From positions 2,666,001-2,730,000 of the forward strand of contig NZ_CP029487.1 in assembly GCF_002441855.2 (NCBI RefSeq): 64,000 nt of DNA. The letters run 5' to 3'. Made by a program: the position numbers and the translations under genes. This DNA comes from Eubacterium maltosivorans (lineage in GTDB: Bacteria > Bacillota > Clostridia > Eubacteriales > Eubacteriaceae). The notes under the pieces are model-generated. The model did not search any database. It was not told the origin of the DNA and saw only the letters and a list, made by a program, of their open reading frames with translations. Positions within the stretch are counted from its first letter, which is position 1, and each line of letters begins with the position of its first letter. Below, one piece after another: positions 25,234-45,499 of the stretch.

Positions 25234-25983
25234 CTATTTTTTATATTTTCTCACAAGCAAATCCATGGACTGCTTTGTGGGTTCCAGACCGTATTCATAG
25301 GCATCTTTATAAATTCGTGGCACCTTCTTTAGGCGGTAATTCATGTCTTCGAGATCAAATGAGGATAGATCCAGCTCATCAACACCGAGCCACTCCGTGT
25401 ATCGCTGATACTGCGGCCCTTTTTTCTCCTTAAACGCTTTTGCAAGCTCCTCAAGACCGCCGGGCCCCCCACAATCCTCGATAATACCGTAGCCCTCACC
25501 CTCAAGCACGCGCGGCAGCTCATTTCCGGACAGTTCCTTCTCCGCATCTATTTCCTCCAGCACGAGCTCTATTTCCCAGCCATCACCGTAATCGTAGGAA
25601 AAAGTCATGGTCTCCATTTTCTCAGTAAGAATATGCTTAACTTTTGTTTCTGCGGCGTCTGAAACGCGGCCTTCAAATCCGAAAAAACTTTCCTCATCAA
25701 TCAATTCAACACGCAGCTCGGAATGTTTAGGATTTTTCCGAAACATGTCAACCATAAGATCAATTGACACTTTTGTGTCTCTGCCCTCTATGCTTTTGCG
25801 CAGATTATCGATTACATGAACATCGAAACAAAACAGATGACTCGCCTGCATTTCAAACAGCGTCATCAGGATATAACCCAGGCGCGCCATTGTGATATTG
25901 TTCATCAACTGAAAGCGACGCCATATCTTTGGTTCATAATCCTTCAGTTCAGCGTAAAATTGATAAATTGGTTGTGAGGCCAT
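25234..25983 (-). CDS. Plasmid pRiA4b ORF-3 family protein
   Basis: A 249-aa protein of the PRiA4_ORF3 family. The N-terminal signature is YQFYAELKDYEPKIWRRFQLMNNITMARLGYILMTLFEMQASHLFCFDV; the second block has FSYDYGDGWEIELVLEEI and PRVLEGEGYGIIEDCGGPGGLEELAKAF. The family is common near mobile DNA and in defence islands, with no established activity. A KKGPQYQRYTEWLG linker and a basic end (MDLLVRKYKK) follow. AGGAGTGAAGAAA precedes the start. It lies 79 bp beyond the DUF3841 fusion gene on the same strand, so it may share its transcript. Confidence 0.85.
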   Translation of the reverse strand: MASQPIYQFYAELKDYEPKIWRRFQLMNNITMARLGYILMTLFEMQASHLFCFDVHVIDNLRKSIEGRDTKVSIDLMVDMFRKNPKHSELRVELIDEESFFGFEGRVSDAAETKVKHILTEKMETMTFSYDYGDGWEIELVLEEIDAEKELSGNELPRVLEGEGYGIIEDCGGPGGLEELAKAFKEKKGPQYQRYTEWLGVDELDLSSFDLEDMNYRLKKVPRIYKDAYEYGLEPTKQSMDLLVRKYKK

Positions 25984-26062
25984 TTTTCTTCACTCCTTTT
26001 TCGTTTACTGTTATCTGTATACCAAGTGGCCTTTTCCAAAATGGAAACAACCACTTTTCAGA

Positions 26063-28231
26063 CTAATCTAAATCCTCCTCATCGCACTTCTTCATAATAT
26101 GCTTTGTTTTCCCGATGGGAAAGGGCGCCGCATCTTTTGAAAAGTATTCAATCTCCACCACCTCAACAATCGCTGTGTGATCTTCTTTTCCGGCAGGAAC
26201 TACGACCCAGTCACCGATCTCAATGGTATCATCCTCAGTGAGGTAGTAGTATGTTTTACCTCCATCTGCAAATGCGACACTGCAAAAAATATAATCACTG
26301 GCGCGCCGCTTTTCTTTATAATAAACAGACGGCCTAAAAATTTCTCCGAAGTCATAATGCCGCATAACCCATGAGAGCTCCTCGATGAACTCCGGCCAGT
26401 CTTCGGGAAGGCCGTTTTTATCGTAACTTCCTCGAATAATGCGCCGAGCCTTTTTTCTGAAGTCAATCGTTATAGTGTACTCTCTGCTTTCATTTGGGTC
26501 TTCAACAGCATCGGCCGGATTGCCTTCAATAGATTCAAACAGCGTATCCGAGTCGAAATAATCCAGAAAATCCAGCACAGCTTTTTTAATTTGATATTTA
26601 TGGCTGACCGCGTATTCCGAATTTATGCGCTGTGTGTGTTCGATGCTTTCAGATTCCCGGTCAATTGTCAATTGCTCTGTGTAATCTTCTGTTTCCGTGT
26701 GGGAATTTTCGTCTTGAAGCCCTTTGGGGTTTGATTTTGTGATTCTATGGTAGTTTACTGCTATCCGTTCTATTTTATCCCAGTTTTTGTTGCCGTCAAA
26801 AACAAAAAGATCTTTAATTTTCAGGGCGTCACGGAGCATCTCTGAGAGGTACAATCCCTCAGCCTTGTAATCTACGCACAAAGAACTTTTAAAGAAAAAT
26901 TCCCGCCCCTCGGTATTGGTCATTGTCATCTCCCAAGACCCGATGTCTTTAATAAGAATATCGTCAAATACTTCAGTAAAATAATTAAAAAGGACTGAAA
27001 AAATCTGGTTGATTTTTGCCTTTTCCAGATAAACCTGCTGCATACGAATGCATTCAAACTTTCCAAATCCTTTTCCATATTTAAAACCAGAAAACCACGC
27101 ATATCCATCCGCCGTCATGGTCAGATACTGCTCCACCTCGTCTTCTGGTTCAGGACAGCGCCAAATATTATTTGTAACAATTCTGATTTTCTGTACCGGT
27201 TCCCGTAACATATCCAACTCTGTTTTATCTTCAAACGTCAAAGCTGCCAAACGCGAGAAAGCGATGATAAACCAAGGCCTGTGCATGTTCGAGAGCAGGC
27301 TTTCCCCCACACTCCAGTGGGTAATATAACGCCATTCCGAAAATATGGCTGACCCCAGCAATTGAACATCTGTCACATCATCAATGATGTATTCCAGATG
27401 CGCATAATCACAAAAAACATTTGCTTCCGGATATGCCGCTGTGAATGACCGACCACAATCCACCACAAAATTCAGGGCAAAGCACTCCTCCGCAAAGCCT
27501 TCTTCGACTTCGTGATCGGAGGTGGTGTTTTTGCAGTATTTATTCAGGTATTTGACGGCGAATTCGTGGATCTGTTTATTGGTAGGCATGACGTCTCCGT
27601 CTCCTTTCATTACTTTGCAGAAAAAAAATTCTACCTTCTTGATCTGTTCCTTCCTTAATTCCCAGAAAGTGGCCTGTATCGATTTCTGAGCCGGGGGACA
27701 ATCCCAATCTAGTGTGTATCGATCCAAGTCAAATATTCTATCCCAACTCATTCTAATTTTATCTCTGCATTTCTCCAGCAAAGCGTCTTTCTTTTCAAAA
27801 TTTATAATATCACAATGGGTAAATCCACCAGACTCTAACTTCTCATAGAAGCTGTTAAAATCCTGTTCATCAACGGCCAGATAACTATTACTCAGTACAA
27901 AATGCCAACCATCAAAATCTGAAAGCACAACCTGGCTGTCATCAATTTCAAAAGCAACCTGTACCATCTGAGTTCCTCGTTTAGCATATCCTCCACAACG
28001 TAAATCACAGCGTTTTCGCTCACCTTCCCATTGATACCAGGCCCACATTGGATACTTCACACCTTCAGGCCGACTTCCGATGCGCATATCCATCTGAGAC
28101 GCCAACCAATCGTAAGCGTCACGAAATTCTTCATCAAATATTGAGTATGAAGGATCGGCTCTCCATATTCCGGTTTGAATAAATTTATGATATGCTTTTT
28201 CATGTTGAATGGTCCATAGCTTGATTTTCAT
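26063..28231 (-). CDS. Large multidomain protein with N-terminal DUF3841
   Basis: A 722-aa protein. Residues 1-190 match DUF3841 (MKIKLWTIQHEKAYHKFIQTGIWR, YPMWAWYQWEGERKRCDLRCGGYAKRGTQMVQVAFEID), normally a stand-alone ~190-aa protein, so this is a fusion. The middle (about 200-540) has an unnamed repeat-poor domain with IGSWEMTMTNTEGREFFFKSSL and LFVFDGNKNWDKIERIAVNYHRIT. An acidic linker follows. The C-terminus (SDYIFCSVAFADGGKTYYYLTEDDTIEIGDWVVVPAG...) resembles a PriA DNA-binding-domain-like barrel. The ATG at 28231 gives the family N-terminus; a TTG at 28258 is an alternative. It follows the SF1 helicase-HEPN gene by 31 bp in one unit. Function unknown. Confidence 0.75.
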   Translation of the reverse strand: MKIKLWTIQHEKAYHKFIQTGIWRADPSYSIFDEEFRDAYDWLASQMDMRIGSRPEGVKYPMWAWYQWEGERKRCDLRCGGYAKRGTQMVQVAFEIDDSQVVLSDFDGWHFVLSNSYLAVDEQDFNSFYEKLESGGFTHCDIINFEKKDALLEKCRDKIRMSWDRIFDLDRYTLDWDCPPAQKSIQATFWELRKEQIKKVEFFFCKVMKGDGDVMPTNKQIHEFAVKYLNKYCKNTTSDHEVEEGFAEECFALNFVVDCGRSFTAAYPEANVFCDYAHLEYIIDDVTDVQLLGSAIFSEWRYITHWSVGESLLSNMHRPWFIIAFSRLAALTFEDKTELDMLREPVQKIRIVTNNIWRCPEPEDEVEQYLTMTADGYAWFSGFKYGKGFGKFECIRMQQVYLEKAKINQIFSVLFNYFTEVFDDILIKDIGSWEMTMTNTEGREFFFKSSLCVDYKAEGLYLSEMLRDALKIKDLFVFDGNKNWDKIERIAVNYHRITKSNPKGLQDENSHTETEDYTEQLTIDRESESIEHTQRINSEYAVSHKYQIKKAVLDFLDYFDSDTLFESIEGNPADAVEDPNESREYTITIDFRKKARRIIRGSYDKNGLPEDWPEFIEELSWVMRHYDFGEIFRPSVYYKEKRRASDYIFCSVAFADGGKTYYYLTEDDTIEIGDWVVVPAGKEDHTAIVEVVEIEYFSKDAAPFPIGKTKHIMKKCDEEDLD

Positions 28232-28262
28232 ATTCCTTTTTGGTATATTAACCTCCAATATG

Positions 28263-31200
28263 TTACCGCAATCTTTTCAATTCTTTACCTACTTGACTTT
28301 CAAACAAAAGTCCATCAATTTTTCTATCTCTATTTTTCTCTTTTTCATCTTTTCTAAATATATCACTTAACAGTGATTCATGATCTCTCCAAGTAAAAAG
28401 TCCAGCGTGGCAACACCTATTTCTTTTATTCGCACAGTCCTTCACTTTTTCCTGGAAGGAGCTCCACCAAAGCGCATCATGCACATTCTTTCCCCGCATT
28501 TTCATCATGTCTCCAAGCTTCGAGTTATTCTGCTTTAAAATTTGGGCAAATGTTCCTAGCGTAAGTTCTTTACTCCGAGCATCTTTAAGCGGTATCTCTC
28601 GTCTTCCTTTCCCCATTCCGTTGATCATGTCATTCGGGAAAAGCTCTTTTAAACTATCGGTAAAGCAATCCTTCATCTGCAATTCTATTGCTTTGCAGAA
28701 AAGAATCGAGCAACAAGAAGCATCCAATTGTTTGTTTGCGTTATTGTATACTGGCTTAAGCAGAAAATAAAGTTTCATTCCAAGGTATATATTTTTTTTG
28801 ACGTCCACCGCCAATTTCTCCAAATCTTTTTTGCCTTTAAATCCAAAGTTTTCTAATTGTTCTGTTGTCAATTCTGAATTCAAAAACTCTTTATATAACC
28901 CTTGAATCAAGGTTGATGTATCAGCACTATCTTCGGATTTAGGGTCTATAAAGGAAGTCACCGGCGGCAATGCTTTTGATGCTTTTGCTAACGCCTCCAG
29001 TTTTTCCTGCTCTGTAAGATTTGATTCAAAAATAACCTTGATTTCCTTTATAGCAAATGTATCGATTATTTGTTTTGCTTTATGAATATAGGTTGACGCC
29101 TTCCATGCTTCTTCATCTCCAATGACATACAGCCTGTATTTAGCTCGTGTCACTGCAACATTTACAATGTTTTTGTTGACCCAACGAATTGCACCTTTTG
29201 CGTCTTCACTTGTATCACATCCCAGTAAAAAGATAACCTCATCAGCTTCTTTACCTTGGAAGGTGTGAACGGTTCCAATTTTTTTCTGATTGTTATCAAG
29301 AATATACTTTATATTTATCTTTGTTGTGCCGCTGCATTCTTGACAATATTTATCTATATACTCTTTTATTCCCGAAACAACGCTTGTGAATGGGCTGATA
29401 ATGTATACACTAGGTTCTGGATTCTTAGAAAAAGCGATCTCCAACAATTCACAAACTTTTTGCCCCTGAGCATCTACAAAATGGTTTGTATTTCCTTTCT
29501 CTTTCCCTTTTACATTTATCCACTGTGATCTATCACAAATAAACTTCTCAACTTTTTCAGGTTTTGGTAGACTTGTCTGCTGTTTCATAATACCACTATA
29601 AGAAATCTCATTTGAAATCTCATACATCGGAGAAATACAACGCCTATGAACCAGTAATGGACAACCGACCCAGTCTGGATAATCCGATTCATTATCCAAA
29701 TATGTCCCAAAAACATTTAACTGATCCGCGAATTCCTGTACAGAAAGTGTTTTTCTCTTATACGGCTTTAATTCATCATCTTTATATGCTTTTTTCAATA
29801 AAACCAAATCATCTGTGACAACAGGTTCAACTTGTTTAGGATCTCCTACAATCACAGCTCTACGGCTCCTGTACAGTGCTCCTAGAGCTATTTGAGGCTG
29901 GGCCTGGCCTGCCTCGTCAACGACAAGCATTCCAATTTTACCAGATTCTTTCACATCTTTTAGCAAACTTCCAACAGAGGCAAAAGTCGAAGAAATCACT
30001 GGCACTAATAAAAATAGCGTTTGGAAAAGAGCAGAAACCATTTTTTCCCTATCTTCTTTATGAAAAACAATTCTTTCATTCTCATCACCCAGCCTTAATC
30101 CCCAATATTGAGCTAAGGTTACAAAATTATCTCTACAATGATTTGATGAAATGACAAATTCTTTGTTCATTCTCATTGCATAGCCGAATAATTTTTCTCT
30201 TTCTCGGTTATATCTCTGTGTAAACCAAGGATTGTCTACCTGGGCAGCAGTTGACACATTTACATCATCAGAAAACAATTGTTCCATAAATTTTTTATCT
30301 AAAATAACATTTTGATCGACAACGTCTAAGCTTGAAAGCCTTGCTATCTCTGCTGCATACATTTTTTCAGCAGCTTCCAGTCTACTGCATGCTTGCTGTT
30401 TCTCGTTTTCATATTCTGCAATCTTTTGATTTTCACTTTCAACTTTCTTTGTCAATCTTTTAAGCTGCTCCTCCGTTTCAAGACACTCTCTTTTTGTAAA
30501 ATTGCTTATCTCTTCTATTTGCCTCATGCTCTCCTTTATTTGGTTTATCTCCGCTTCCAATAAAGATACAATATTTTTTTGTTCATCAGCATCTTTTTTG
30601 TGTTCATCAGCAAGATTCATAGCCGCTCTATACTTGGATTTATTAAATATTTTAGAAATAACACCAACTGAATTTCTTGCTGAAATCTCTTTTTCCAAAA
30701 AGTTTTTAATCTTCGCTTTTTCATTTTTAAGCTCTGTTTCTTTTGTCTGCAGATTCTTTTCCACTTGATAAAGATCAGCTTCATATACTGTTGCTTTTTC
30801 TTGCTGTTCTCTCTCCCGATTACTTAGTTCGAAGATATTCTTTTGATCTTTCTCGATTTCATACTTGTTTGCTGCAATAACAGCTTTACATTGCTCACAT
30901 GTTTTAGACACCGCTTTTTCTAGGGTTATCTTTTTAACCAATAAATTTCCGACTCTCCTCAAATCATTTTGCATATCTTTTACAATTTCCAGCTGTTCCT
31001 GGAATTTCTTTTTAGCAGTTTGAAAGGATTCAACCCGTTTTAGAGCTGTATCCTTTGTTTTATAGAAATCGCGTCCCAATGGATAGAGGACATTATAATA
31101 GAAATCATTTAAATTCGATTTTTTTCCCAAGGGTGCAGCTATTAATCCCCATACTTCGTCGTCGCCTAAAAGCATCTTTGCGTATTGAGTAAAATACACA

Positions 31201-32789
31201 TCTTTATACGTCGCTCCCTGATGAGTCGTTTCTTCCACACCCGACTCATCTGCATCAAAAAGCTTTCTAACCTCTAACAACAGGGCTTTTAGTTCATCAG
31301 TATCATTTTCTAGAGGACGTAAATCTTTCAGCATACTCTTCGGGAGTTCTTTTGAAATGTTTTCAACCGCCGCATTGTTACAAGAGGTTACCAGTATACT
31401 ATAATCATTGATTTTGTCGTTCTTTAAGCTATACCAATGACGTGTATATTTGGAATATGCATTCTCCGGACCATCTCCTTGTAGAAAATCATTTTTTTCA
31501 AATGCTTCTTTGTCAGGATCATCATATTTAGCTAATAAAACAGCCCTTTCAATGACATTATTTACCACAATCTCTTTGAGCAGAGTCGTTTTTCCTGTAC
31601 CTGGCGGACCATTTACAGAAAATATCTTACTATTTTCTTTAAAAAGATTCGTTATGCCCGTACTTCTTGCTAAATTTATAGCTATTTGCTGCATAAACAC
31701 TGGCATAAATCTTGATGGCCATTTTCCTAATGGCGCATTTTCAATATCTAAAATTTTATTTACTTGTTTTAATAATTCGTCTTTACCGTGCAATTTGGGA
31801 TTAACCAAATCAAACCTTTTATTTATTCGGGAATCTTCCTCCTTCAATGCTGTGATGTAATTTAAGATGTCTTGTCTCATATAGGAAGATTTGTCTAAAT
31901 CACCATCTTTTACTTTTCCAAGAATATATTTCAAATCATCCAAGTAATAATTACGACTTAATCCAAGATAATTATCATCTTCTTTTTTATTTTTTGTTTT
32001 TTCATCTGCAAACAGCTGAAAACTTATTCCATATACTTCCTCATATGCATTTTCTGTATTTTCAATATTTCCCTTTATATACATTACTTCTACAGCTTTA
32101 TACAGTTTATGTAGAAGCTCTATTGATATAGCGGTCTCAGAAAATTCCTGTAATTCTTTCTCTCTAGCTGTTTCATGTTCCGCAAAATAATCTACTATTG
32201 TTTCCTTTGCTTGTTCATCAGCCAAAGTGCTCTCAATATTCTTATCAAAAAATTTTTTCTCAATTTCTTGTACTGCATTATCGTATAGTTTGCTGTCTAG
32301 AGAACTGGAAAAATCTTTTTTGCCAGATTTTATCTGGTTAAGTGCCCAGATAATTGTCGATAAAGACAGGGAGCCCCTTACATAGTTTCCTTCCGGCGAA
32401 AGCTGCAGACTCATCCATGCTATTGTATCATTATTTTTCTCAGGTCGCTTTTCGTCCTTTTGATCAAATGGTAGAATTTTGGAAATACATTCAATACACT
32501 TTTCTCTTTTAACTTTACCTATGTAAATAGTTAAGTTCCCCCACTTTTTCATGTCACAGTCAAATGCTTCATTAGCTACTATTTCGTAAAGATTTTTTTT
32601 AATGTCTTTGTTTGTCAGTAAAATAAAATCCCCAATCGATTTATTCTTTGCCGTTTTATTTATAACCTTTTTCTTATGTTTGTCTATTTTATTCTTTGTG
32701 TTCCTATAATCTGGATACTTGTCTTGTGACAAAAATTCTAGTGCAAACCAATATTCTAAAATTTTTTCTGCTGATTGCGTTCTGCTCAT
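28263..32789 (-). CDS. SF1 (UPF1-like) helicase with coiled coil and C-terminal HEPN-like domain
   Basis: A 1508-aa protein. Residues 1-360 are an unassigned domain opening AEKILEYWFALEFLSQDKYP. The split AAA_11/AAA_12 helicase has Walker A GPPGTGKTT (394-402), motif II LVVDEAGQAQPQ (near 957), GDPKQVEPV, motif V GTVHTFQGKEADEVIF and motif VI VNVAVTRAKYRLYV (near 1210). A long coiled coil (about 640-850) with a CxxC (CEQC) is inserted between motifs I and II. From about 1330 comes an all-helical HEPN-like domain ending in KRNRCCHAG, an Rx4H motif typical of HEPN ribonucleases. The ribosome site is GAGGAGGG. Helicase plus a possible toxic RNase suggests abortive defence. Confidence 0.82.
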   Translation of the reverse strand: MSRTQSAEKILEYWFALEFLSQDKYPDYRNTKNKIDKHKKKVINKTAKNKSIGDFILLTNKDIKKNLYEIVANEAFDCDMKKWGNLTIYIGKVKREKCIECISKILPFDQKDEKRPEKNNDTIAWMSLQLSPEGNYVRGSLSLSTIIWALNQIKSGKKDFSSSLDSKLYDNAVQEIEKKFFDKNIESTLADEQAKETIVDYFAEHETAREKELQEFSETAISIELLHKLYKAVEVMYIKGNIENTENAYEEVYGISFQLFADEKTKNKKEDDNYLGLSRNYYLDDLKYILGKVKDGDLDKSSYMRQDILNYITALKEEDSRINKRFDLVNPKLHGKDELLKQVNKILDIENAPLGKWPSRFMPVFMQQIAINLARSTGITNLFKENSKIFSVNGPPGTGKTTLLKEIVVNNVIERAVLLAKYDDPDKEAFEKNDFLQGDGPENAYSKYTRHWYSLKNDKINDYSILVTSCNNAAVENISKELPKSMLKDLRPLENDTDELKALLLEVRKLFDADESGVEETTHQGATYKDVYFTQYAKMLLGDDEVWGLIAAPLGKKSNLNDFYYNVLYPLGRDFYKTKDTALKRVESFQTAKKKFQEQLEIVKDMQNDLRRVGNLLVKKITLEKAVSKTCEQCKAVIAANKYEIEKDQKNIFELSNREREQQEKATVYEADLYQVEKNLQTKETELKNEKAKIKNFLEKEISARNSVGVISKIFNKSKYRAAMNLADEHKKDADEQKNIVSLLEAEINQIKESMRQIEEISNFTKRECLETEEQLKRLTKKVESENQKIAEYENEKQQACSRLEAAEKMYAAEIARLSSLDVVDQNVILDKKFMEQLFSDDVNVSTAAQVDNPWFTQRYNREREKLFGYAMRMNKEFVISSNHCRDNFVTLAQYWGLRLGDENERIVFHKEDREKMVSALFQTLFLLVPVISSTFASVGSLLKDVKESGKIGMLVVDEAGQAQPQIALGALYRSRRAVIVGDPKQVEPVVTDDLVLLKKAYKDDELKPYKRKTLSVQEFADQLNVFGTYLDNESDYPDWVGCPLLVHRRCISPMYEISNEISYSGIMKQQTSLPKPEKVEKFICDRSQWINVKGKEKGNTNHFVDAQGQKVCELLEIAFSKNPEPSVYIISPFTSVVSGIKEYIDKYCQECSGTTKINIKYILDNNQKKIGTVHTFQGKEADEVIFLLGCDTSEDAKGAIRWVNKNIVNVAVTRAKYRLYVIGDEEAWKASTYIHKAKQIIDTFAIKEIKVIFESNLTEQEKLEALAKASKALPPVTSFIDPKSEDSADTSTLIQGLYKEFLNSELTTEQLENFGFKGKKDLEKLAVDVKKNIYLGMKLYFLLKPVYNNANKQLDASCCSILFCKAIELQMKDCFTDSLKELFPNDMINGMGKGRREIPLKDARSKELTLGTFAQILKQNNSKLGDMMKMRGKNVHDALWWSSFQEKVKDCANKRNRCCHAGLFTWRDHESLLSDIFRKDEKEKNRDRKIDGLLFESQVGKELKRLR

Positions 32790-32882
32790 AAGCCCTCCTC
32801 ATTTATTTATATGCGTGTAATGACTATAAGCGCGGATTTAGTATTCTCAGTTTGAATAAACCATATTAACAAGATACTTTGT

Positions 32883-33070
32883 TTAATCTTCCAACGTCAT
32901 AGAGATTTCACGTTCAACTTTTGTTTCCATAAAAATCAAATATCTAGAAACCAACTTCCCATTGCTCTCAGTTTTTCATCCGAATAATTTGGGCCACACT
33001 TTGTTTCCTCAATGTTGGTTGTTCTCCTGAAAATGATATTGATTCCTTTACTGTCCGTTATCCCTTTTAA
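32883..33070 (-). pseudogene. Frameshifted small gene remnant between helicase genes
   Basis: In this 277-bp gap one frame reads GINIIFRRTTNIEETKCGPNYSDEK and a second frame continues TESNGKLVSRYLIFMETKVERE to a stop at 32883. Adding one A in the run of five A at the junction joins them into a single ~60-codon product. This looks like the end of an inactivated gene or a phase-variable homopolymer. No family recognised, and no clear start or ribosome site. Confidence 0.3.
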
Positions 33071-35016
33071 TCATCCAAACAATAACAATTTATTAGACCA
33101 AATAAATTTCGAGCACTTTCGATAACTTCTTGTGTGGGAGATGGATAATACACCACTAAATTTTCCTTTGTCCTTGTACAACAGACATAAAATAACTTCT
33201 TCGTCCGGTTAAGAATCGTATTAAAGCTTTTCTTTTTTCCCGCCTTTAATGTATCCTTTATTCCCTCATTCAGCAAATATTCAAAATTATATTTTGCCCA
33301 ATCGCCGTTATGAAGAATGACAAGTACGTTTTTAAACTCCTGTCCTTTAATTTTGTGCTGTGTCGATAGAACGGTTTTTCCTTCAATGTAATGATAACAT
33401 TTTGCGAATCGTTCAAAAGGAATATCTAAAACGCGCCAATACTCATATTCATGTTCCTGAATATACATATTAAATGCATCATCTTTAACACAAAGTTTTG
33501 TGCTGTCAGCATAATCAATCATTTCTTTGATAGTCATTTCATTTGATTGGCTTGTGCATTGATCGACGATTTTTTTTAGCGCTTGCTTATCTTTTGTACT
33601 ATAAACACGAAATGATGTTTTGCGTATCAGATCATGAAAATCTTTTGTCTGGTACAATAATAATATTTCCTGAATTTTGACAAGATGTCTGATAATTGCG
33701 CTTTTGCGCGGTTTATGCGTATTTTTTGCATCTATGCGGACTGCATCGTCAAGAAGCATCTCTTTATCAAGATATATTTTTTTTACTTTCAAATAAGGCC
33801 AGTCCTTCACATAATTAAAACATTCTTTTCTTTTTATATCTTGAAGAAATACATCCAGATGACTTTTTCTGCAATGCGTTTTACTGTTATAGTTCCATAC
33901 CATACCTTTTAAAACCGTTTCAAATCCTGCGTCTTTGTCAAATTCATATTTTTGATTTCTTGCCTCTTTCTCAAACTCTCTTCTGAATTTTGTAATCGGA
34001 TCTTTATCATAAACAGACAGCAAGTCAAGGAATCCCGCATCATCAGCGATCAAATTGTGTGTAAGCCTCAGCTCTTTCGTCTCTTTCGGGTTACTAAAAT
34101 CCCATCCTGCACAAAATCTTGACTCGCGTACTTTGTCGATATCTAAACTCTTAGAATGCAAAAACGTGATACTGCCCTCAACCGGAATGCCATTTTGCAT
34201 ATTTGGCGCATTTTCATCATCTGAAGGGGTTTGTGTTAATCCGTCTGTTCGAATTGTGTTCGCCAAATTAATGACAGCTATAGGATTGCGGCGGTTTTGA
34301 TTTTTCTGTACTTCAACAACATTGTTCTCAAACCATTCAGCCCTATCATTATCGGACTCTTTATAAACAGATTGCATGGTGTCGCCAAAAAAGCCAATCA
34401 TATTCTTCTTAGTTATATTTTGTCCACTCAAATGTGAAAGAAGAAGTTCCATCACCAGTTCGTCTGTATCCTGATATTCATCCACAAAAATAAATGAATA
34501 GCTGTCTATGAGAATATCACAAAGCTTTGGGTAGTCTCGAAACATTCGATTCGCCAGCAATAACACTTCATCGTGGGAGATTGTTCCACTCCCAAGTTTT
34601 GTGTACTCCTGGTAGGTAATGTCTGAAGGAAAATCATTCATATCAACAGTAGCTTTGTCTGGATACCAAAGTCTTTCTTCGGAGTTATTCACCAGATGAA
34701 TGAGTGTCTCTTTCATTTCCCTCTGAAATGATGAGATCACGCGCCAAAGAAAATCGTGAATCGTTGATACCCACAATTTTTCATTACTCACCCGGTTGCG
34801 TATTTCAATCGCTGCGGCATTTGTGTAAGTGATACACGCAATTCTGGCCCATGGTTTTTCTGCTTGAATCCGGCTCAATATCTGCACAAGCGAGTAGGTC
34901 TTTCCGCTTCCCGCACCACCTTTAAGAACAAAATTATGCCCTTCCCGAATAAGCTTCATGACCTTATCTTCTTCAGATAACCATCCTTTATCGGTCAGTT
35001 GTCCTTTCGCAGCCAT
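33067..35016 (-). CDS. UvrD/PcrA-like helicase (GajB-like), partner of OLD nuclease
   Basis: A 649-aa SF1A helicase: Walker A LKGGAGSGKTYSLVQIL (about residue 42), motif II FIFVDEYQDTDELV, motif III GFFGDTMQSVY, motif V TQHKIKGQEFKNVLVI and motif VI YVCCTRTKENLVV. The start at MAAKGQL (35016) follows GAGGAGGGAC and lies 22 bp inside the end of the OLD gene, a coupled arrangement. An OLD ATPase-nuclease next to a UvrD helicase is the architecture of Gabija (GajA-GajB) and class 2 OLD systems. This protein is longer than the ~500-aa GajB prototype. Confidence 0.88.
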   Translation of the reverse strand: MAAKGQLTDKGWLSEEDKVMKLIREGHNFVLKGGAGSGKTYSLVQILSRIQAEKPWARIACITYTNAAAIEIRNRVSNEKLWVSTIHDFLWRVISSFQREMKETLIHLVNNSEERLWYPDKATVDMNDFPSDITYQEYTKLGSGTISHDEVLLLANRMFRDYPKLCDILIDSYSFIFVDEYQDTDELVMELLLSHLSGQNITKKNMIGFFGDTMQSVYKESDNDRAEWFENNVVEVQKNQNRRNPIAVINLANTIRTDGLTQTPSDDENAPNMQNGIPVEGSITFLHSKSLDIDKVRESRFCAGWDFSNPKETKELRLTHNLIADDAGFLDLLSVYDKDPITKFRREFEKEARNQKYEFDKDAGFETVLKGMVWNYNSKTHCRKSHLDVFLQDIKRKECFNYVKDWPYLKVKKIYLDKEMLLDDAVRIDAKNTHKPRKSAIIRHLVKIQEILLLYQTKDFHDLIRKTSFRVYSTKDKQALKKIVDQCTSQSNEMTIKEMIDYADSTKLCVKDDAFNMYIQEHEYEYWRVLDIPFERFAKCYHYIEGKTVLSTQHKIKGQEFKNVLVILHNGDWAKYNFEYLLNEGIKDTLKAGKKKSFNTILNRTKKLFYVCCTRTKENLVVYYPSPTQEVIESARNLFGLINCYCLDD

Positions 35017-37142
35017 AATAGTCCCTCCTCGATATACTGCGGTATCTGCCAGTTTGTGTAATCCCATCCTTTTCCTGAATCACTTGTACTGTTGATTAGT
35101 ATATCCATTGCAAAAGAAGTTTTACTGTTAATACATTTTTCCGCCAGATCGTACGCATCATAATCGTCCTTTTTACTGATATATGGTTTGTTTTTCAATC
35201 CCTGAAATTTATCTTGATTCTCAATCAGCATATCGCGGTTAAGTTCTATAAAGGCGTCCTCGAAGCTCCGCGGATAATATGCTCCTTCCTCTGTTTGAAA
35301 TGCGACTCTCAGTATACCCTCAGGATCCGCAACCCACTTTTCATTCTCATTCTTAAATATTTTTTGTTTACTTGTAAGTTTGTACAAATGCTCCAGCCCC
35401 TGCGCTTTTGTGATTGCTCCACCATTAAGAAAGAAATGGTTTAACGCCGCATTGCTTGTGTATTCTCCTTCTCTGGTACGAACCTTGCACTCACTTTTTT
35501 TAAATCTTCCGTTCTTGTCCTCAATAATTTTTTCTTTAACGGCATCGATGTCTGTGATAATCAAAGTCTTTATGCCTAAGAAAGCGATGAATTTATCAAA
35601 CAGATGCGCAGAGGCTCCTGCCGCTACGAGCGTTATATTCTGAGACAAAAGATCCACATTGCCCTCATTATGCCGTTCTTGATCAATCTTTTTCATCATA
35701 GCGGGCAGCAGGATTCTTTCAGTATCTCCTTCGTACATGATAATCTTATTGGCAAAAAAGATCTCCGAATAATTTAAAGTCAGATACTGTTTCAGGAATT
35801 TATAAGTGGTATTATTCTTCTCGTTTTTATATGCGATCTCAAGTCCTTCAAGATTTTTTGAAATCACACTTGTCGGGGTCTCTCTGTAAAAATAGATGAT
35901 ATCCTCAAAATCGCTCTGTGAGACAATATGTGACGAATGAGTTGATATAATCGTCTGTAAATGAATGCCATTCTTATCCTCACTGTCACTGACTCCTTCA
36001 AACAGAAGATTTTTGATATTATTAATGAATATATATTGCATTTGCGGATGTGTATGCGCTTCCGGTTCTTCGATAAATAACAGATTGATATCCGCAGGTG
36101 TTGTGCCAGGATCACTGTCACCGCGCATATCACAAAGAATTGTCTCAATTTCAAATATCATGCTGATGAGATTCATGTATCCAAGGCCGTTGTAGCTTTC
36201 CGGCAGATTGTGCTTCTCAGCCTCATACATGACCTTTGTATTTCCCTTGAGAAATTCTTTCTGGCTGAGCGTTGAAACAATTTTTATAATTGTATCGTTT
36301 TTTCTAACTCCTCCAAACTTTTTAACTTTGCCAATCACATTGCCAAAAAGTTCGTCGTAAATTTCTGTAAAAGATGCATCTGTGCTGCTCAGAGCATCCT
36401 CAAAGCTATCGATGACTGGATTTTCCATGTCATTTTTCATTCTTTCATAATATTTTCCAGACAATGTGGAGAGCGAGGTGTCATTCTCCTTATTGTCACT
36501 GTCTCTGCGGGCGCTGATATAGTTAAAACAAACAATTTTGTCAATTTTTACAGACCTGTCGAGTATTTTATAGTCCTCCTCATCGACATCTCCTTTTTCT
36601 ACATCATAGCGCACTGCTTTTTTCTGTGTTTTAAAATATCTGCTGAGCCGGGACTGCACGAACGCCTCAAAGCATATTTCCTTAGAAGGTTCAGAATCTT
36701 TATTTTTCTTCACAGTTTTCTGCCAATACTCTTGCCAGTCCTGCTGGAGCTTTTCTATTTGGTCATCTGGAAGGATGTATTCAAATTTGAGCACAACAAT
36801 ATTATTTTCCGGATCAAGATCCATCATTAAATCACAGATATTCGCATATGAATCATTGTCGTCGTATTGTATAAAAAGGTATAGCTCAATCCCTTTGTGA
36901 TCTTCGGTTTCCCATCGTCCATCCTTCTCAATAGCCTGATACAGCTTTGACTGAAACTCAAAATTGAAGTCATTATAACCAAATGATGCCGAACTACAAT
37001 TAATAAATTTGTTCAAGACCGTCAGCAGTGATGTCTTACCTGTGTTATTCTTTCCCACGACCAGTGATAGAAAGTCCTTTAAACTTACATTTATTTCTTT
37101 AAAAACACGATAATTGTGTACTCGCAACTGAGTTAGCTTCAT
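34995..37142 (-). CDS. OLD-family ATP-dependent endonuclease with TOPRIM domain (GajA-like)
   Basis: A 715-aa protein. The N-terminal ABC-type ATPase has Walker A VVGKNNTGKTSLLTVL (near residue 30) and Walker B LLFIEEPEAHTHPQMQ (near 350). The C-terminal TOPRIM nuclease has its Glu in IIMYEGDTERILLPAMM (near 470) and the DxD in LIITDIDAVKE (near 527). Together these would nick or cut DNA when nucleotide is depleted, as described for Gabija. It is longer than GajA (~580 aa), mostly in the region between the ATPase motifs. GAGGGATTGAGATT precedes the start. It is cotranscribed with the helicase gene. Confidence 0.88.
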   Translation of the reverse strand: MKLTQLRVHNYRVFKEINVSLKDFLSLVVGKNNTGKTSLLTVLNKFINCSSASFGYNDFNFEFQSKLYQAIEKDGRWETEDHKGIELYLFIQYDDNDSYANICDLMMDLDPENNIVVLKFEYILPDDQIEKLQQDWQEYWQKTVKKNKDSEPSKEICFEAFVQSRLSRYFKTQKKAVRYDVEKGDVDEEDYKILDRSVKIDKIVCFNYISARRDSDNKENDTSLSTLSGKYYERMKNDMENPVIDSFEDALSSTDASFTEIYDELFGNVIGKVKKFGGVRKNDTIIKIVSTLSQKEFLKGNTKVMYEAEKHNLPESYNGLGYMNLISMIFEIETILCDMRGDSDPGTTPADINLLFIEEPEAHTHPQMQYIFINNIKNLLFEGVSDSEDKNGIHLQTIISTHSSHIVSQSDFEDIIYFYRETPTSVISKNLEGLEIAYKNEKNNTTYKFLKQYLTLNYSEIFFANKIIMYEGDTERILLPAMMKKIDQERHNEGNVDLLSQNITLVAAGASAHLFDKFIAFLGIKTLIITDIDAVKEKIIEDKNGRFKKSECKVRTREGEYTSNAALNHFFLNGGAITKAQGLEHLYKLTSKQKIFKNENEKWVADPEGILRVAFQTEEGAYYPRSFEDAFIELNRDMLIENQDKFQGLKNKPYISKKDDYDAYDLAEKCINSKTSFAMDILINSTSDSGKGWDYTNWQIPQYIEEGLLWLRKDN

Positions 37143-37294
37143 AATCTCAATCCCTCTCCCCTATCCCTTAATCTAACTTTCTACCAGCACAGCGGCGCTT
37201 AATAGTCTATGCGTAGTAAAAGCGTCGGCGGAACGCCTGCCTTCTTTAAAACTTTGCTGTTTAATCTTCATCTTTTTTCGGGCAAAATCAATTT

Positions 37295-38896
37295 CTAAAC
37301 ATCAACCCCCAAGATCTTCAGCTGCTCTTTAATTTCGGCCTCTAACGTAGCGATTTCTTTATTATCTTCCTCCAACTGTTTAATCACAACATTTAAATCA
37401 ATGGGTTCTTCTTCCTCAAATGTATCAACATAGCGCGGAATATTTAGGTTGTATTCATTTTCCTTAATCTCCTCAATCGAGGCCACATGGGCGTATTTGT
37501 CCACATCTTTGCGTTCTTTGAAGGTTCTGATAATCTTATTGATGTTTTCACTGTTCAGGATATTTTGATTTTTACCTTTCTCAAACTCCCTGCTTGCGTC
37601 AATAAACAGAACATCCTTGGTTTTTCGATTTTTTTTAAACACCAAAATGGTCGTCGGAATGCTCGTTCCATAAAACAAATTGGCTGGCAGACCGATGACT
37701 GTATCGAGGTAATTTTTCTCAAGCAACGTCTTTCGTATTTTCCCCTCGGCGGCTCCGCGGAACAGAACGCCATGCGGCAGTACTATGGCCATTGTCCCCG
37801 TACTGTTCAAATGATACAGGCTGTGCAGAATAAAGGCAAAATCAGCTTTTGAGGCCGGCGCTAATTTTCCATAATCTTTAAATCGCGGGTCCTTTAATTT
37901 TGTCTCAGCATTGTCCCACCTGGCTGAATACGGCGGATTCGCGACCACGGCATCGAATGACCTCGGCTGATCAACGCCCTTGCTGTCTGGCCCGTCCGGC
38001 CAGTCGTTTTCCAGGGTATCGGCATTGTTCAGGGTCATGTTGCTGTATGACACATCGTGCATCATAAGGTTCATGCGGGCCAGGTTGTAAGTCGTCGTAT
38101 TTAATTCCTGTCCATAAAACTTAATGGCGCCCGGCTGGTTGCCGCCAGGCAATTCTTCCCGGACTGTTAAGAGCAACGATCCTGAGCCCATCGTGGGGTC
38201 ATATAAGGTAAATGTATCCTTCAGTTGTTTTACATCGCTGGTTACAATTTTAGCCAAAACCTGACTGACCTGATGCGGCGTATAAAACTCACCGCCCTTT
38301 TTACCAGCGCTTGCCGCAAATTGCCCAATAAGATATTCATAAATCTCACCGAGAATATCCCGGCCATCATCGCTTTTATATTCAATATCATCCACCAGTT
38401 TTACAATATTATTCAAGGATTTTGCCCGCGCCGTTGTGGAATTGCCAAGGCGGGAATCACCTAAGTTAATATCGTTAAATACGCCTCTGAAATCTTTGGC
38501 TGCCTCTTTGTTGAGTTCGGCGTTTTTGTTAAAATTGTCAAATATTGTCTGATAATCGCTCGGGATAATCTGGGCATCGTTTATCTTTTCATTGAGCGAC
38601 ACCCAGGTATCCTCAGGGGCGATCGCATACCCCAGGCTGGAGGAAATATCTTCCAGATAGTCTGTTAAATCTTCCCCTGCTGCCTGTTCTCTGTAGGCCT
38701 CGTTGACGGATTGGCCTTCGGCTACGTCAATGACATTGTAATCGACCAGGTAGGCTTCCTGATGTTCGGACAGATAGCGGTAGAACATAAAAGCCAGAAT
38801 GTAGTTTTTAAATTCCGCCGCGTCCATATTTCCACGCAGCTCGTTGGCCATGGCCCACAGCTTGCTGGTGATTGTCTGTAAATTACTATTTGACAT
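37295..38896 (-). CDS. hsdM: Type I restriction-modification system methyltransferase subunit
   Basis: A 533-aa N6-adenine methyltransferase. The helical HsdM_N domain comes first (LWAMANELRGNMDAAEFKNYILAFMFYRYLS), then the Rossmann methylase with GEFYTPHQVSQVL, SAM motif TLYDPTMGSGSLLLTV (near 230) and catalytic motif IV VANPPYSARW (near 320). C-terminal helices contact the S subunit (EEEEPIDLNVVIKQLEEDNKEI). It is the last gene of the operon S-like, R, rhuM, S, M and methylates the host site recognised by HsdS. AAAGGAAATTAAACC precedes the start. Confidence 0.96.
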   Translation of the reverse strand: MSNSNLQTITSKLWAMANELRGNMDAAEFKNYILAFMFYRYLSEHQEAYLVDYNVIDVAEGQSVNEAYREQAAGEDLTDYLEDISSSLGYAIAPEDTWVSLNEKINDAQIIPSDYQTIFDNFNKNAELNKEAAKDFRGVFNDINLGDSRLGNSTTARAKSLNNIVKLVDDIEYKSDDGRDILGEIYEYLIGQFAASAGKKGGEFYTPHQVSQVLAKIVTSDVKQLKDTFTLYDPTMGSGSLLLTVREELPGGNQPGAIKFYGQELNTTTYNLARMNLMMHDVSYSNMTLNNADTLENDWPDGPDSKGVDQPRSFDAVVANPPYSARWDNAETKLKDPRFKDYGKLAPASKADFAFILHSLYHLNSTGTMAIVLPHGVLFRGAAEGKIRKTLLEKNYLDTVIGLPANLFYGTSIPTTILVFKKNRKTKDVLFIDASREFEKGKNQNILNSENINKIIRTFKERKDVDKYAHVASIEEIKENEYNLNIPRYVDTFEEEEPIDLNVVIKQLEEDNKEIATLEAEIKEQLKILGVDV

Positions 38897-38922
38897 GGTT
38901 TAATTTCCTTTCGATTTTTTGG

Positions 38923-40158
38923 TTATACAAACATTGATTGTAGTAATGCTTTTTTTAGATCTTGCAGATGGTCTAACTTACGTTGATGAAGGGTGATGAG
39001 GGTGTCGAGGTTTCTGAAAAAGCATCCAATTTGGACTTGTTCATTTTTCGTTGGTACTGAAACCATCTTCGCAATAAGTTCGCCTTTTGTAATTCCTTTA
39101 ATTGATGTTCCTTGAACTGAATTTAATTCCCTTTGCAGTTTTCTATAAATCAAATAGGCCGTAAACCATATATCAGTTTTAATCCTACTCAAAGACAAAA
39201 AATCTTGACTTGTAGTATATGAAAACGGCATAACTGCAAGCTTTCCGACACCTACACGAGTAATTATTGCAATGGAATTTTCGGGAACTAATTTCGTCGC
39301 AGAATTCATTAACCCACTTTGAGAAATATACTTCCGTGGCTTTACTCCAAATATCCGGTGTTCCTTTAAATCAGAAGATTGTATCCAAGGAATTTCACCG
39401 TTCCAGTAAGTATCATTTGATGTATTTGGCGTTCCCCCACCATAGGTATTATCAGCCAATTCTCCCAACTTCCGCTGTTCCCAAGCGTCAGTGAATCCCG
39501 GAAAACGAAGTTCTGGAAAATCTTCACCTTTTTTCGGAAACATTTTTTGAAGCAAACTTTTCTTTTCGTCTTTTAAGTGGTCTAACTTACGCTGATGAAG
39601 GGTGATGAGGTGGTCAAAAGATTCAAAATATGTAGATATTTGTCTTTGTTCTTCTAATTTAGGAAAAATCACCAGTCCTTTTAATGCATTTTCATTTGAT
39701 ACCTTCATATCATTTTTGGCGCCTTTATTTACAAGCGGACGCATATAATTATTCATTCTTGTATCTTGTTCAAAATACACTTGGACAAATTTGGGATCTG
39801 CAATGTCTCTAGGCTTGTAAACTGCATATAAAGTTGATACAATACCTGCTTTTCCTTTATTTGTCTTAATTATTCCATATGGATTAGCTTTCAATGGCGA
39901 CTTTGTGTAAACAACATCTTCATTTTCCACCACACCATAATTAGCAACCGAAACTCCTGCAAATGATCTACCTTGAAATTCAATCTGATTTACTATGCCT
40001 ACATCACCAGATACAGATAAAACATCTGTTTTATCGTATGTCTCTTCCTTATTTTTTTTTGGTGATACTTCTAAATATTCTCCCAACTTCCGCTGTTCCC
40101 AATCATCCGTAAACCTCGGAAACCTCAGCTTAGGCGCCATTCTCTTCTTCTCACTCAC
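38923..40158 (-). CDS. hsdS: Type I restriction-modification specificity subunit
   Basis: A 411-aa S subunit with two target recognition domains. Each begins with an F(P)RFT/GFTDxWEQRKLGE entry (residues about 13 and 215) and ends with a conserved coiled-coil spacer LITLHQRKLDHLxD that fixes the distance between half-sites. The second half opens ADNTYGGGTPNTSNDTYW. The DNA of both conserved blocks is nearly identical, giving two direct repeats. Its start overlaps the rhuM stop by 4 bp, and hsdM follows after 26 bp. The recognised sequence should be bipartite but cannot be read from the protein. Confidence 0.94.
   Translation of the reverse strand: MSEKKRMAPKLRFPRFTDDWEQRKLGEYLEVSPKKNKEETYDKTDVLSVSGDVGIVNQIEFQGRSFAGVSVANYGVVENEDVVYTKSPLKANPYGIIKTNKGKAGIVSTLYAVYKPRDIADPKFVQVYFEQDTRMNNYMRPLVNKGAKNDMKVSNENALKGLVIFPKLEEQRQISTYFESFDHLITLHQRKLDHLKDEKKSLLQKMFPKKGEDFPELRFPGFTDAWEQRKLGELADNTYGGGTPNTSNDTYWNGEIPWIQSSDLKEHRIFGVKPRKYISQSGLMNSATKLVPENSIAIITRVGVGKLAVMPFSYTTSQDFLSLSRIKTDIWFTAYLIYRKLQRELNSVQGTSIKGITKGELIAKMVSVPTKNEQVQIGCFFRNLDTLITLHQRKLDHLQDLKKALLQSMFV
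38969..39001. repeat. Direct repeat in hsdS spacer region, copy 1
   Basis: A 33-bp stretch that matches 39578-39610 at 32 of 33 positions and encodes the LITLHQRKLDHL spacer at the end of the second target domain. Confidence 0.85.
39578..39610. repeat. Direct repeat in hsdS spacer region, copy 2
   Basis: Second copy, in the same orientation, at the end of the first target domain. A similar shorter pair (39461-39483 and 40079-40101) encodes the WEQRKLGE entry. Such repeats let target domains be exchanged by recombination. Confidence 0.85.
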
Positions 40159-41156
40159 TTCTTCTCTCCCTGAATCTGCCTGATTTCTCTGTCAAAATCT
40201 GAAATGATTTTTTGATGTTTATTAAATTCTCTGTATTCTCCGATGGCTTTTTCCTTGGCGGTGCCATGGGAAACGTGTCCATGCCCTTCCAGGATTTCAT
40301 ACCGATTAAATTTCAGGAATTCATCGATGCTTGCCACAAAATCCTTCATCCCCAGCAAGGTCTCATCTTCGAGCAAGCGTTCAACATAATCAAAGTAAGC
40401 GGAAATGTTTCTCTCAAGGCGGCGGATTTCCTTCTCGGACAAATAGTTTTTCGCAACCACCACATCAGACTTAAGTATCCGGCCATCCGGTGAATTTTTC
40501 CACGATGTCAGTCCCATGTGCTCTTTATTTCGATCTGCACTGTCGTAGACAATCTCTGCCGCTGTTTTTCCTGTTATCGCGTAATGAAATTTGTTTTGAA
40601 CCGTCGCGTAAAATTGCTTTGTGATCTCGGAATTCTTATCATAGTCATAGGATACTTCGGCAAATACATCGGTAATCTGCTGCCAGATTCTTCGCTCACT
40701 TGCCCGAATAGAGCGGACCGTTTCGAATAACTCACGAAAATAATCTTTGCCAAGCACAGCCTCCCCCTGTTTCATACGCTCTACGTCAATCTTAAACCCT
40801 TTTTGGATATACTCTTTTAAGATATCGGTCGCCCAGATACGAAACTTTGTCGCTTTTTTGGAATTCACACGGTAACCGACTGAGATGATCGCATCCAAAT
40901 TATAAAATTTGACATCTTTCGTCTGCGTTTTCCCCTCAAGAGCCCCATGCCGAGTGGTGTTTTCCAAAATGGAAACAACCACTTTCTCATCAAGCTCCTC
41001 AGATTCAAAAATATTTTTTAAATGCTTGCTGATCGCAGGAACACCGACATCAAATAGTCCTGCGATGGCCTTCTGTGTTGCCCAGATTGTTTCATCTTTG
41101 ACGACAACTTCTATTTTTTCGCCTGCGTCATACATTAAAAACTGTATTTCATTCAT
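40155..41156 (-). CDS. RhuM family protein within the type I R-M operon
   Basis: A 333-aa protein of the Virulence_RhuM family: MNEIQFLMYDAGEKIEVVVKDETIWATQKAIAGLFDVGVPAISKHLKNIF is a DNA-binding-like N-terminus, followed by NLDAIISVGYRVNSKKATKFRIWATDILKEYIQKGF and a helical C-terminus (FDYVERLLEDETLLGMKDFVASIDEFLKFNRYEIL). Homologues sit inside many hsd operons; the role is unproven, perhaps control of restriction. The start at 41156 has GAGGTGG upstream, while an in-frame GTG four codons earlier overlaps it. It ends in a 4-bp overlap with hsdS. Confidence 0.88.
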   Translation of the reverse strand: MNEIQFLMYDAGEKIEVVVKDETIWATQKAIAGLFDVGVPAISKHLKNIFESEELDEKVVVSILENTTRHGALEGKTQTKDVKFYNLDAIISVGYRVNSKKATKFRIWATDILKEYIQKGFKIDVERMKQGEAVLGKDYFRELFETVRSIRASERRIWQQITDVFAEVSYDYDKNSEITKQFYATVQNKFHYAITGKTAAEIVYDSADRNKEHMGLTSWKNSPDGRILKSDVVVAKNYLSEKEIRRLERNISAYFDYVERLLEDETLLGMKDFVASIDEFLKFNRYEILEGHGHVSHGTAKEKAIGEYREFNKHQKIISDFDREIRQIQGEKK

Positions 41157-41169
41157 ATTTTCTTCCACC

Positions 41170-44100
41170 TCAATTTTCCACCAGATTATCCGCTAATTGA
41201 TGGATTGCTTCACGCAGACCATTGCGATACTTAATCTTTGACAGCGTCTGAACTTCCTCATCATGCGCTAAATTTTTGTAATCAACACTGGCCTTCGCAA
41301 TGATATCACGAATCTGACCTGTATCATCTAAATCCTGCACGCCGTATCGATGATGGCTGAACAACGCCCGCATCCCGGCGCTTGTGATAATATCCACAAT
41401 CCCCCATTTGATTCTGAAATCCAGGAGTGTTCGATCCAGACTGATACAGCTGGCTGCCTGTATCGTTTCCTCACTGCTGTTTAATCTTGCCGGATATCTG
41501 TAGCCAGAGCCTTTTGGAGGATAATATCCTTTTATAATGGCCGTTGCAGCGTTCATGATCTTCGCAGCATAATTTCGATCCTCCAGGCCATTAGCAAACT
41601 GATTGATTTTTTCTCTGGTCTCTCTGGCTTCTTCTGTCTGCTGCTCATGCACCTGATTTAACAGATCTTCAACCAGTTTTGTCAGATAATCATAATCTAT
41701 TTTTACGTCTTTTACATGTGTCATTTTAAGTTCTATTTGGTACAACGGGACTTTTTTTTCTTTTGCGATATGCTGTTTCAGTTCATTGGTTAATACGGTT
41801 GTCAGCATTACTTCCTGCTCGCCCGTCATCCCAAGGGCCTCGACTAACTCATCCGGATCATCATAATTAAAGCCCACTTTAATTCCATCCACTTCCCCGG
41901 GATCATACTGTTTTAGTTTGGCCATACCAATGTTGTATTCTTTAAGCAATTCCATCATTTCTTCTTTACTTTTTTCAGATGGCGGCAGCTGCTGAAACGC
42001 GTTTGTCAAACCGCTTAACTGGTTCACCACCTTTTTCACTTCGGCAAAAACATCTTCAAAAGGCTTTGCGATAACGCCGTCTTTTTCGTTGGCTTTACGC
42101 TGTTCATCCTCAGATAAATTCGCCGATTCTTTATTGGCATAGACCGCCAGAGCCGCATTCATCAGTTTTTCATTCTGCGCGGGCCACCGATAATTTACAA
42201 CACGTCCCCAGGGTTTTTCCTGCATATCCGCAATACGATTGGTTCTGGAATACGCTTGGATAAGTGATGCTCCCTTGAGTGTTCTGTCGACATAAAGCGT
42301 GTTGAGCTCCGGCGCGTCAAAGCCCGTCAACAGCTGATCGACAACGATGACGAGATCGAGAAAATTTTTATCCGCTGCCGTCTTGTTTAAACGGCTGATA
42401 ATATCCTGCGTGTAACCTGACACATTATCCATTCCAAAGCTCGTATCAAACGCTTTATTGTAGGTTTGAATGGCCTCAAACAGTCCTTTGTTAGTTGAAA
42501 GCATGCTGTTATTATTGGAGTTGTTTTGACTGAAGGTCACTGCAACTTTTAAGGTTTGGCCGCCATTCTGTCTGTTTTGAGCATTCACACGTTGGAATTC
42601 ATTGTAGTACATCATTGCCATCGGCGTACTCGCTTCTCCTCCCCCGACATGGGTTGTAAAAAGAGCATTGTACTTTCCTTCATTCGAGCGATTGCGCCAG
42701 TTCTTAAAGATGTCTTCAACGACCAAACGAATGTGTTCGGGGTTTTCATCATAAAAACTCGGTTCAACCGCATCATCCATATCCTCTCCGGTAAGATTTG
42801 CAATTTTTTCCTGTATCTGTTCATCAGACCACTTTGGGTGTCGGTTTTTATAGAACCTTGGTAAGTAGTCTGTCTTCATTTTTTCTTCGTCAATCGTTGT
42901 TTCAAAATCGACTTTAAATCCCAAAACATTTCGATCTGCAATGGCCTCACGAATTGTGTAAGCGTGAAGTAAAGGGCCAAAAATATCTTCTGTGCGCAAT
43001 CCCATCTTTATCTCATCAAACTTTGGCGTTCCCGTATATCCCACCCAGGCAGATTTTCTAAAAGCCTTTTGAATTTTTGCAAAGCTCTCGCCCCCGGTTG
43101 AGCGGTGGGCTTCATCGACGATAAACACAATATTTTTGTCCGGCGCTTTAAAGTTTTTTCTTTTAACTAAATTTTCCAGTTTCTGCACAGAGGTGACAAT
43201 GATATTGTTATCCTTTCTTTTTAACTTACGGCTCAACTCATTGGTATTCTTTGTATCTTCGATGCTTCCTATTTTATCGTCGTTGTCGATATCGCTGTCC
43301 GGATCATAGGCTCTGTAGTTCTCATTTGTCTGTGTCGTCAGGGCGATTCTGTCCACTAAAAAAACGACTTTATCAATTTTAGGCATACGGCTCGCCAGCC
43401 ATGCAGTTTTAAAACTGGTAATGGTCTTACCAGAACCGGTCGTATGCCAGATATATCCTACCTTATTTGTTCCGAGTTCAAAATCAACCTTTTTCAGACT
43501 TTCAATCACTTTTTGTGTGGCAAATACCTGATAAGGGCGCATCACCTTAAGCATTTGCTTATTTTTTGTGCCGTCCAGAATCATGTAGTTTGTCGCCATT
43601 TGATGCGCCATTGGAATACTCAGCACCCCATCCGCAAACTCTTTCCAATGATGTACAATTCCATTGTCTTCTTTACGCTGCCAGTGAAAGGCGAAATCCT
43701 TGTTAAATTTCTCGGACGTTGTATTTGCCATGTATTTCACATTATTGGGCGTCATTGCGACCAAAATTTGTAACGTCGAGAAAATATCGCGGTATTGATT
43801 CTCATCAATGTACTGGTGCATTTGATTTAATGCTTCGTTGATGTCATGGGTATCGCTTTTTTCTTCTATTTGAATGATAGGCAACCCATTGATGAGCAGT
43901 GTGGTATCGAAACGGCGGGGCTTTTTTCCTGCAATCACTGCGGGACGATAGATTTGATTAACGACTTGATAAACCGTATCCCCCGCTCCAATCTGTTTTT
44001 GGTCAAACACTGTCAAAAACACATGGCGGCCGTCATCTAAATCAATTTCGATTTGTGATACGCCGTTGAGTCCATATAAAAACTGTCCTGCCTCATAGGG

Positions 44101-44940: not shown

Positions 44941-45036
44941 TTTAGTGCCTTCCAAAAATTACATTTTATCTTAGTTCTATTCTATCATCTCACTTTCAAT
45001 TCGTCAATCTTTTTGTGCTTTTTTCAAATTACAATA

Positions 45037-45077
45037 AAAAAATGACAGGTTTCAATGGTTGAACACCTATCATTTTT
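45037..45077. terminator. Bidirectional terminator between small ORF and R-M operon
   Basis: Arms AAAAATGACAGGT and ACCTATCATTTTT (one mismatch) with an inner TTCAA/TTGAA pair and a short loop. T runs are present on both strands. It follows the 45152-45400 gene and isolates the R-M operon. Confidence 0.8.
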
Positions 45078-45151
45078 AATCATCGACTTAACCATATATC
45101 GAAAGTTAAAACCAATATATGCAATATCGCTCTAAACTCTATATACTTATT

Positions 45152-45400: not shown

Positions 45401-45499
45401 TACTTTCACCTCATTAATACTATATTTCTAAAACTTCTGCATAACATATTGCCAGCCTCTCTCCTGTTGATAGCAAAAACATCATCACCGTAAGAACAC

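Follow-up and report, generated by a model that had tools for sequence, protein, structure and literature searches.

Two long, co-directional genes occupy the reverse strand of the window (the whole 64,000-nucleotide stretch of DNA analysed here). They are listed below with their domains and motifs; identities refer to L082, the sole full-length orthologue of the helicase, which is carried by a provirus of an isolate genome and is 63% identical to it.

28263 to 32789, reverse strand: SF1 UPF1-like helicase with a C-terminal HEPN-like tail, 1508 aa; intact ORF, assigned from domain searches
31710 to 32789, reverse strand: N-terminal region of the helicase, aa 1-360; 61% identity to L082, without a Pfam match, kept in a family of stand-alone helicases
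31584 to 31610, reverse strand: Walker A sequence motif GPPGTGKTT, aa 394-402 (K400)
30270 to 30992, reverse strand: coiled-coil-like insert, aa ~600-840; LmuB match (PADLOC) over this stretch, 41% identity to L082
29070 to 30272, reverse strand: end of RecA1, and RecA2, aa ~840-1240; DEAGQ, VGDPKQ, HRRC, GTVHTFQGKEA and NVAVTRAK; 82% identical to L082
28266 to 28802, reverse strand: C-terminal helical tail, aa 1330-1508, with a HEPN_Swt1-like segment at aa 1375-1476 (28362-28667)
28407 to 28424, reverse strand: RNRCCH (Rx4H), aa 1456-1461; RNKCCR in L082
28232 to 28262, reverse strand: intergenic gap of 31 bp with GGAGG and AAGGA ribosome-binding-like sequences
26063 to 28231, reverse strand: DUF3841 fusion protein, 722 aa; intact ORF, ATG at 28231
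27614 to 28231, reverse strand: DUF3841 domain, aa 1-206; encoded as a separate ~205-aa protein by many genomes of the class
27209 to 27595, reverse strand: helical domain (aa 213-341), which Butyrivibrio pCY186 also carries, there joined to a restriction endonuclease (H30)
26312 to 27208, reverse strand: alpha/beta domain at aa 342-484, followed by another at aa 485-640 that is Mago nashi-like (Z 9.3)
26066 to 26293, reverse strand: PriA 3'-DNA-binding-domain-like barrel, aa 647-722; from structure comparison, weak in Pfam

Both ORFs are intact, in keeping with the preliminary description of two long genes separated by 31 bp. The ORF listing starts the second gene (the partner) at a TTG, giving 731 aa; a start at the ATG at 28231 yields a 722-aa product, whose first residues agree with the beginnings of DUF3841 homologues, and the 31-bp gap. 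The pair lies in an island of approximately 20 kb (window 26000-46000, ~26-46 kb) with a GC content of 33-42% versus ~50% in the flanks, and the proposed defence-island setting was borne out, as the same low-GC stretch holds Gabija (GajA, E 4e-264; GajB, E 3e-197; PADLOC) and a type I R-M operon in which a RhuM gene is inserted between HsdS and HsdR. GajA and GajB are separate genes upstream (33067-37142), 277 bp from the helicase, and are not parts of the pair. A PRiA4_ORF3 gene (window 25234-25983, same strand) is located 79 bp downstream of the partner and may belong to the operon as its third gene. The GC3 of the helicase is 0.30 versus 0.43 for the partner, so the two genes may have been acquired separately.

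The helicase matches the Pfam families AAA_11 and AAA_12, interrupted by a long insert, and all of its SF1 motifs are intact (GPPGTGKTT at 394, DEAGQ at 958, VGDPKQ at 981, GTVHTFQGKEA at 1172 and NVAVTRAK at 1210), which agrees with the UPF1-like helicase split by a coiled coil that had been described. The coiled-coil-like insert is the part of the protein evolving fastest relative to L082. The N-terminal 360 residues, previously noted as unassigned, indeed have no Pfam match, but they are not private to the window helicase, since the region recurs in a family of stand-alone helicases. The integrase gene of L082 is ~88-90% identical at the DNA level to those of phages SpaA1 and TS-12, and the L082 helicase is found at the extreme end of its contig, which stops at the helicase stop codon and leaves the next gene off the contig.

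When 32 helicase cores were placed in a tree, the window helicase and L082 formed a pair with 100/100 support that adjoins a Niallia plasmid helicase, within a clade of ~25 proteins of which most end no more than ~20 residues after the helicase core. Relatives of the window helicase are solitary, on plasmids and proviruses. The PLD-bearing MkoC proteins L050 and L091 fall outside this clade with strong support, a placement to be read with caution given a long branch. The window helicase thus belongs with UPF1-like SF1 helicases that mostly stand alone, a family related to Mokosh type II but distinct from it. The plasmid helicases of Niallia (WP_249937971.1) and Parabacteroides (WP_154395880.1) belong to the same clade, and that of Niallia has the N-terminal region in common with the window helicase; however, both have short or different C-termini, with no HEPN-like tail and no DUF3841 or accessory neighbour. 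The Niallia helicase (L059:8740-12192), the sister of the window lineage, has a weak match to a Topo I zinc ribbon at its end, and the C-termini of the family are therefore variable.

Comparison with named systems gave no exact match beyond the helicase core in PADLOC, NCBIfam, Pfam or PHROGs, in line with the earlier remark that no established system with this pair could be named. The best PADLOC match of the helicase is MkoC of Mokosh type II (E 3e-59), confined to aa 380-1264 and scoring 199 bits versus 535 bits for a genuine MkoC (L050). MkoC ends in a PLD nuclease (L050), whereas the window helicase has no PLD and carries the HEPN-like tail instead. Mokosh type I consists of MkoA and the PLD-bearing MkoB; the window partner has neither a PADLOC match nor a PLD. 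In CoCoNuT systems (CnuH/CnuE), a UPF1-like SF1 helicase with coiled coils is coupled to HEPN ribonucleases (PMC11090510), and the window helicase resembles these in being a UPF1-like SF1 protein with a coiled-coil-like insert and a HEPN-like domain. However, CoCoNuT loci encode homologues of McrB/McrC and, as a protein of its own, the wHTH-HEPN effector CnuE (PMC11090510), neither of which was seen at the window locus, where helicase and HEPN-like domain form one protein; the neighbours of the pair are Gabija, type I R-M and PRiA4_ORF3, with no McrB GTPase or McrC beside the helicase. A Swt1/Abi2-type HEPN fused to an SF-I helicase in R-M-like loci was described in 2013 (Anantharaman 2013, PMC3710099), and the HEPN-SF-I helicase fusion is in principle already known from that work. 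The giant proteins of that study also contain transglutaminase-like, Vsr and wHTH domains, none of which was found in the window pair.

The tail region (aa 1240-1508, ~270 aa) is common only to the window helicase and L082, with 57-61% identity; it is as well conserved between the two as the N-terminus, which argues that it is under constraint. No tail homologue was found in the plasmid collection, no convincing one in 391 genomes of the class, and IMG/VR returned L082 only. The Pfam HEPN_Swt1 model matches the tail over nearly its whole length at 13.8 bits, below the cut-off of 27.5. A profile of the tail compared with a profile built from 13 Swt1-type HEPN sequences gathered for this comparison scored 20.5, higher than every one of 200 column shuffles, and placed the RN..cH segments opposite each other; a separate HMM comparison with the same Swt1 set paired the LDxxxC helix of the tail as well; the hhalign E value for tail against Swt1-HEPN is 0.02-0.1, which is statistically weak. 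A sequence search of solved structures with the tail gave nothing significant, and the AlphaFold model of the tail was unusable (pLDDT 37). Taken from sequence, a HEPN fold of the tail is plausible, and we lean towards it. The preliminary description had proposed a HEPN-like C-terminus ending in Rx4H: RNRCCH is present and the likeness to Swt1 was recovered, but such a string arises by chance in ~14-19% of shuffles of the window tail, and L082 has no Rx4-6H in its tail, the His being replaced (RNKCCR). Because this His is not conserved in L082, the tail is no more than a candidate RNase. The Rx4-6H catalytic motif is only partly conserved in Swt1-like HEPN families (PMC3710099). Six Cys residues in the two main helices of the tail (aa ~1359-1461; window 28407-28716; CC, C, C, CC) are conserved between the window helicase and L082, and a metal or disulphide role for them is possible.

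The DUF3841 match of the partner (PF12952, aa 5-198) is well above threshold (E 1.5e-35; 122.9 bits versus a cut-off of 27), and the proposed fusion of DUF3841 to an unnamed middle domain was recovered. A literature search on DUF3841 found no paper in the library searched. Of the structure predictions, the AlphaFold model of the partner is usable for aa 342-722 (pLDDT mostly 60-92); pLDDT is mostly below 50 for the DUF3841 part, whose homologues were only partly aligned. The barrel at aa 647-722 superimposes on the 3' DNA-binding domain of E. coli PriA with Z 9.5 and rmsd 2.9 over 71 residues (24% identity), so that the PriA-like barrel proposed earlier is clear by structure, while the Foldseek match to PriA has a probability of 1.00 but an E value of 0.15 and the Pfam PriA-3'BD match is below cut-off. 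The barrel shares the fold of this PriA domain but comes without the PriA helicase, and is attached to the alpha/beta domains and DUF3841 instead. Foldseek against the PDB with the partner model gave no match at E < 0.001. A likeness to Mago nashi at residues 486-629 (Z 9.3, with 5-8% identity) may reflect shared topology only, which is how we take it. An origin of the two alpha/beta domains by duplication was considered and dropped, having no sequence support.

Residues 213-722 of the partner occur elsewhere as a stand-alone protein of ~510 aa (the accessory protein), and its fusion to DUF3841 was seen only in the window. This protein has no name in PADLOC, NCBIfam, Pfam or PHROGs, and a sequence search of solved structures with it returned nothing significant. 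Rearranged forms were also observed: L079:986-2593 has DUF6508 fused to the alpha/beta and PriA-like core where the N-terminal domain normally stands, and L137:4521-5291 is a 256-aa viral protein with an unassigned N-terminus followed by the helical domain of aa 213-341. On a viral contig (L112:3499-5555), a DUF3841 gene overlaps a nicotinamide phosphoribosyltransferase gene by 4 bp, which hints at a possible link between DUF3841 and NAD metabolism.

The accessory gene was located at 13 distinct loci, of which all but L078 and L079 were checked for neighbouring restriction genes. Restriction genes were located upstream in 7 of the 13, a plain count rather than a significance, as no random background was drawn: GmrSD at L039, L071/L072 and L074, McrBC at L073, L076 and L077, and LlaJI in the phage group L064/L069. 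RhuM lies directly upstream of the accessory gene at L040, and no restriction gene was found beside it at L041, L042 or L043. The gap between restriction and accessory genes is 27 bp at L071, 33 bp at L074 and 14 bp at L076; at L064 there are 28 bp between the accessory gene and a preceding gene with no Pfam match, and at L039, L073 and L077 other short genes intervene. The short gaps at L071, L074 and L076, together with the 31 bp that separate the partner from the window helicase, indicate that the accessory gene is often a downstream cistron of different defence operons. In the Oscillospiraceae/Heliusvirales gut phages L064, L069 and L070 (PV036431, PV036425 and PV036449), the accessory protein is encoded near one end of the genome beside DNA methyltransferases, with a LlaJI-type restriction gene in two of the three.

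Searches for a second copy of the pair covered several collections. The partner query matched in 53 of the 391 class genomes and the helicase query in 5, and the two were side by side in none except the source genome. No second pair turned up in the plasmid collection (both queries), the phage collection (partner query), IMG/VR (both) or, with the helicase query, a phylum sample of ~400 genomes, whose short helicase loci were read without their neighbours. The helicase is absent from four other genomes of the genus, and a scan of the genome contig collection gave only a weak helicase match. The preliminary description had put forward a dedicated two-gene unit and named co-occurrence of the homologues in other genomes as one of its tests; the outcome went against it, with no second adjacency in the collections searched.

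The explanation that we prefer, and to which we give an even chance, is that the pair is a horizontally acquired, modular and probably anti-phage operon whose second gene encodes a partner-swapping, DNA-binding accessory. We infer the anti-phage function and the joint action of the two proteins from the anatomy and the company of the genes. The helicase would be a member of the solitary-type family that gained a C-terminal Swt1-like, HEPN-like tail in the lineage of the window and L082, and the partner a fusion of DUF3841 to a swappable accessory that elsewhere follows GmrSD, McrBC or LlaJI genes. The accessory part may bind DNA with exposed 3' ends or forks arising from phage replication; the helicase would then load and translocate on nucleic acid, and a conformational change would free the tail, which might cut RNA if it is an active HEPN, or merely bind it, so that the infected cell is stopped. 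More tentatively, and on balance doubtfully, the ~510-aa protein may be an undescribed accessory common to GmrSD, McrBC and LlaJI restriction systems that reads DNA 3' ends, fused here to DUF3841 and serving a new helicase-HEPN-like anti-phage system.

A serious competitor, although we would not bet on it, holds that the helicase makes up a whole defence system by itself and that the partner, an independent gene, just happens to follow it in the island. The solitary helicase relatives on plasmids and proviruses, the association of the accessory protein with other genes and the differing GC3 values are all consistent with this; however, the helicase and partner are on the same strand with a 31-bp gap, and at three other loci the accessory gene sits 14-33 bp behind a restriction gene, much as it does here. 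A dedicated, conserved abortive-infection system, in which a helicase sensor with an active HEPN RNase has the DUF3841 protein as its fixed partner, would account for the adjacency, the island setting, the intact helicase and the Rx4H string of the tail, but we regard it as improbable, given that the two genes co-occur nowhere else in the collections searched, that the motif His is missing from the L082 tail and that chance yields such a string in ~14-19% of shuffles. A divergent Mokosh type II (MkoC) system, suggested by the best PADLOC match, is very improbable, and membership was ruled out by the lack of a PLD, the low bit score and the well-supported separate branch in the tree.

The locus cautions that adjacency within one island does not make a system. 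It shows defence operons assembled by the swapping of parts: one unnamed accessory module follows restriction enzymes of several unrelated kinds and, in the window, a helicase. Should the module turn out to read DNA 3' ends, different effectors would have a sensor in common. Of the pair, this recurrent module has the greater novelty and is the part most worth following.
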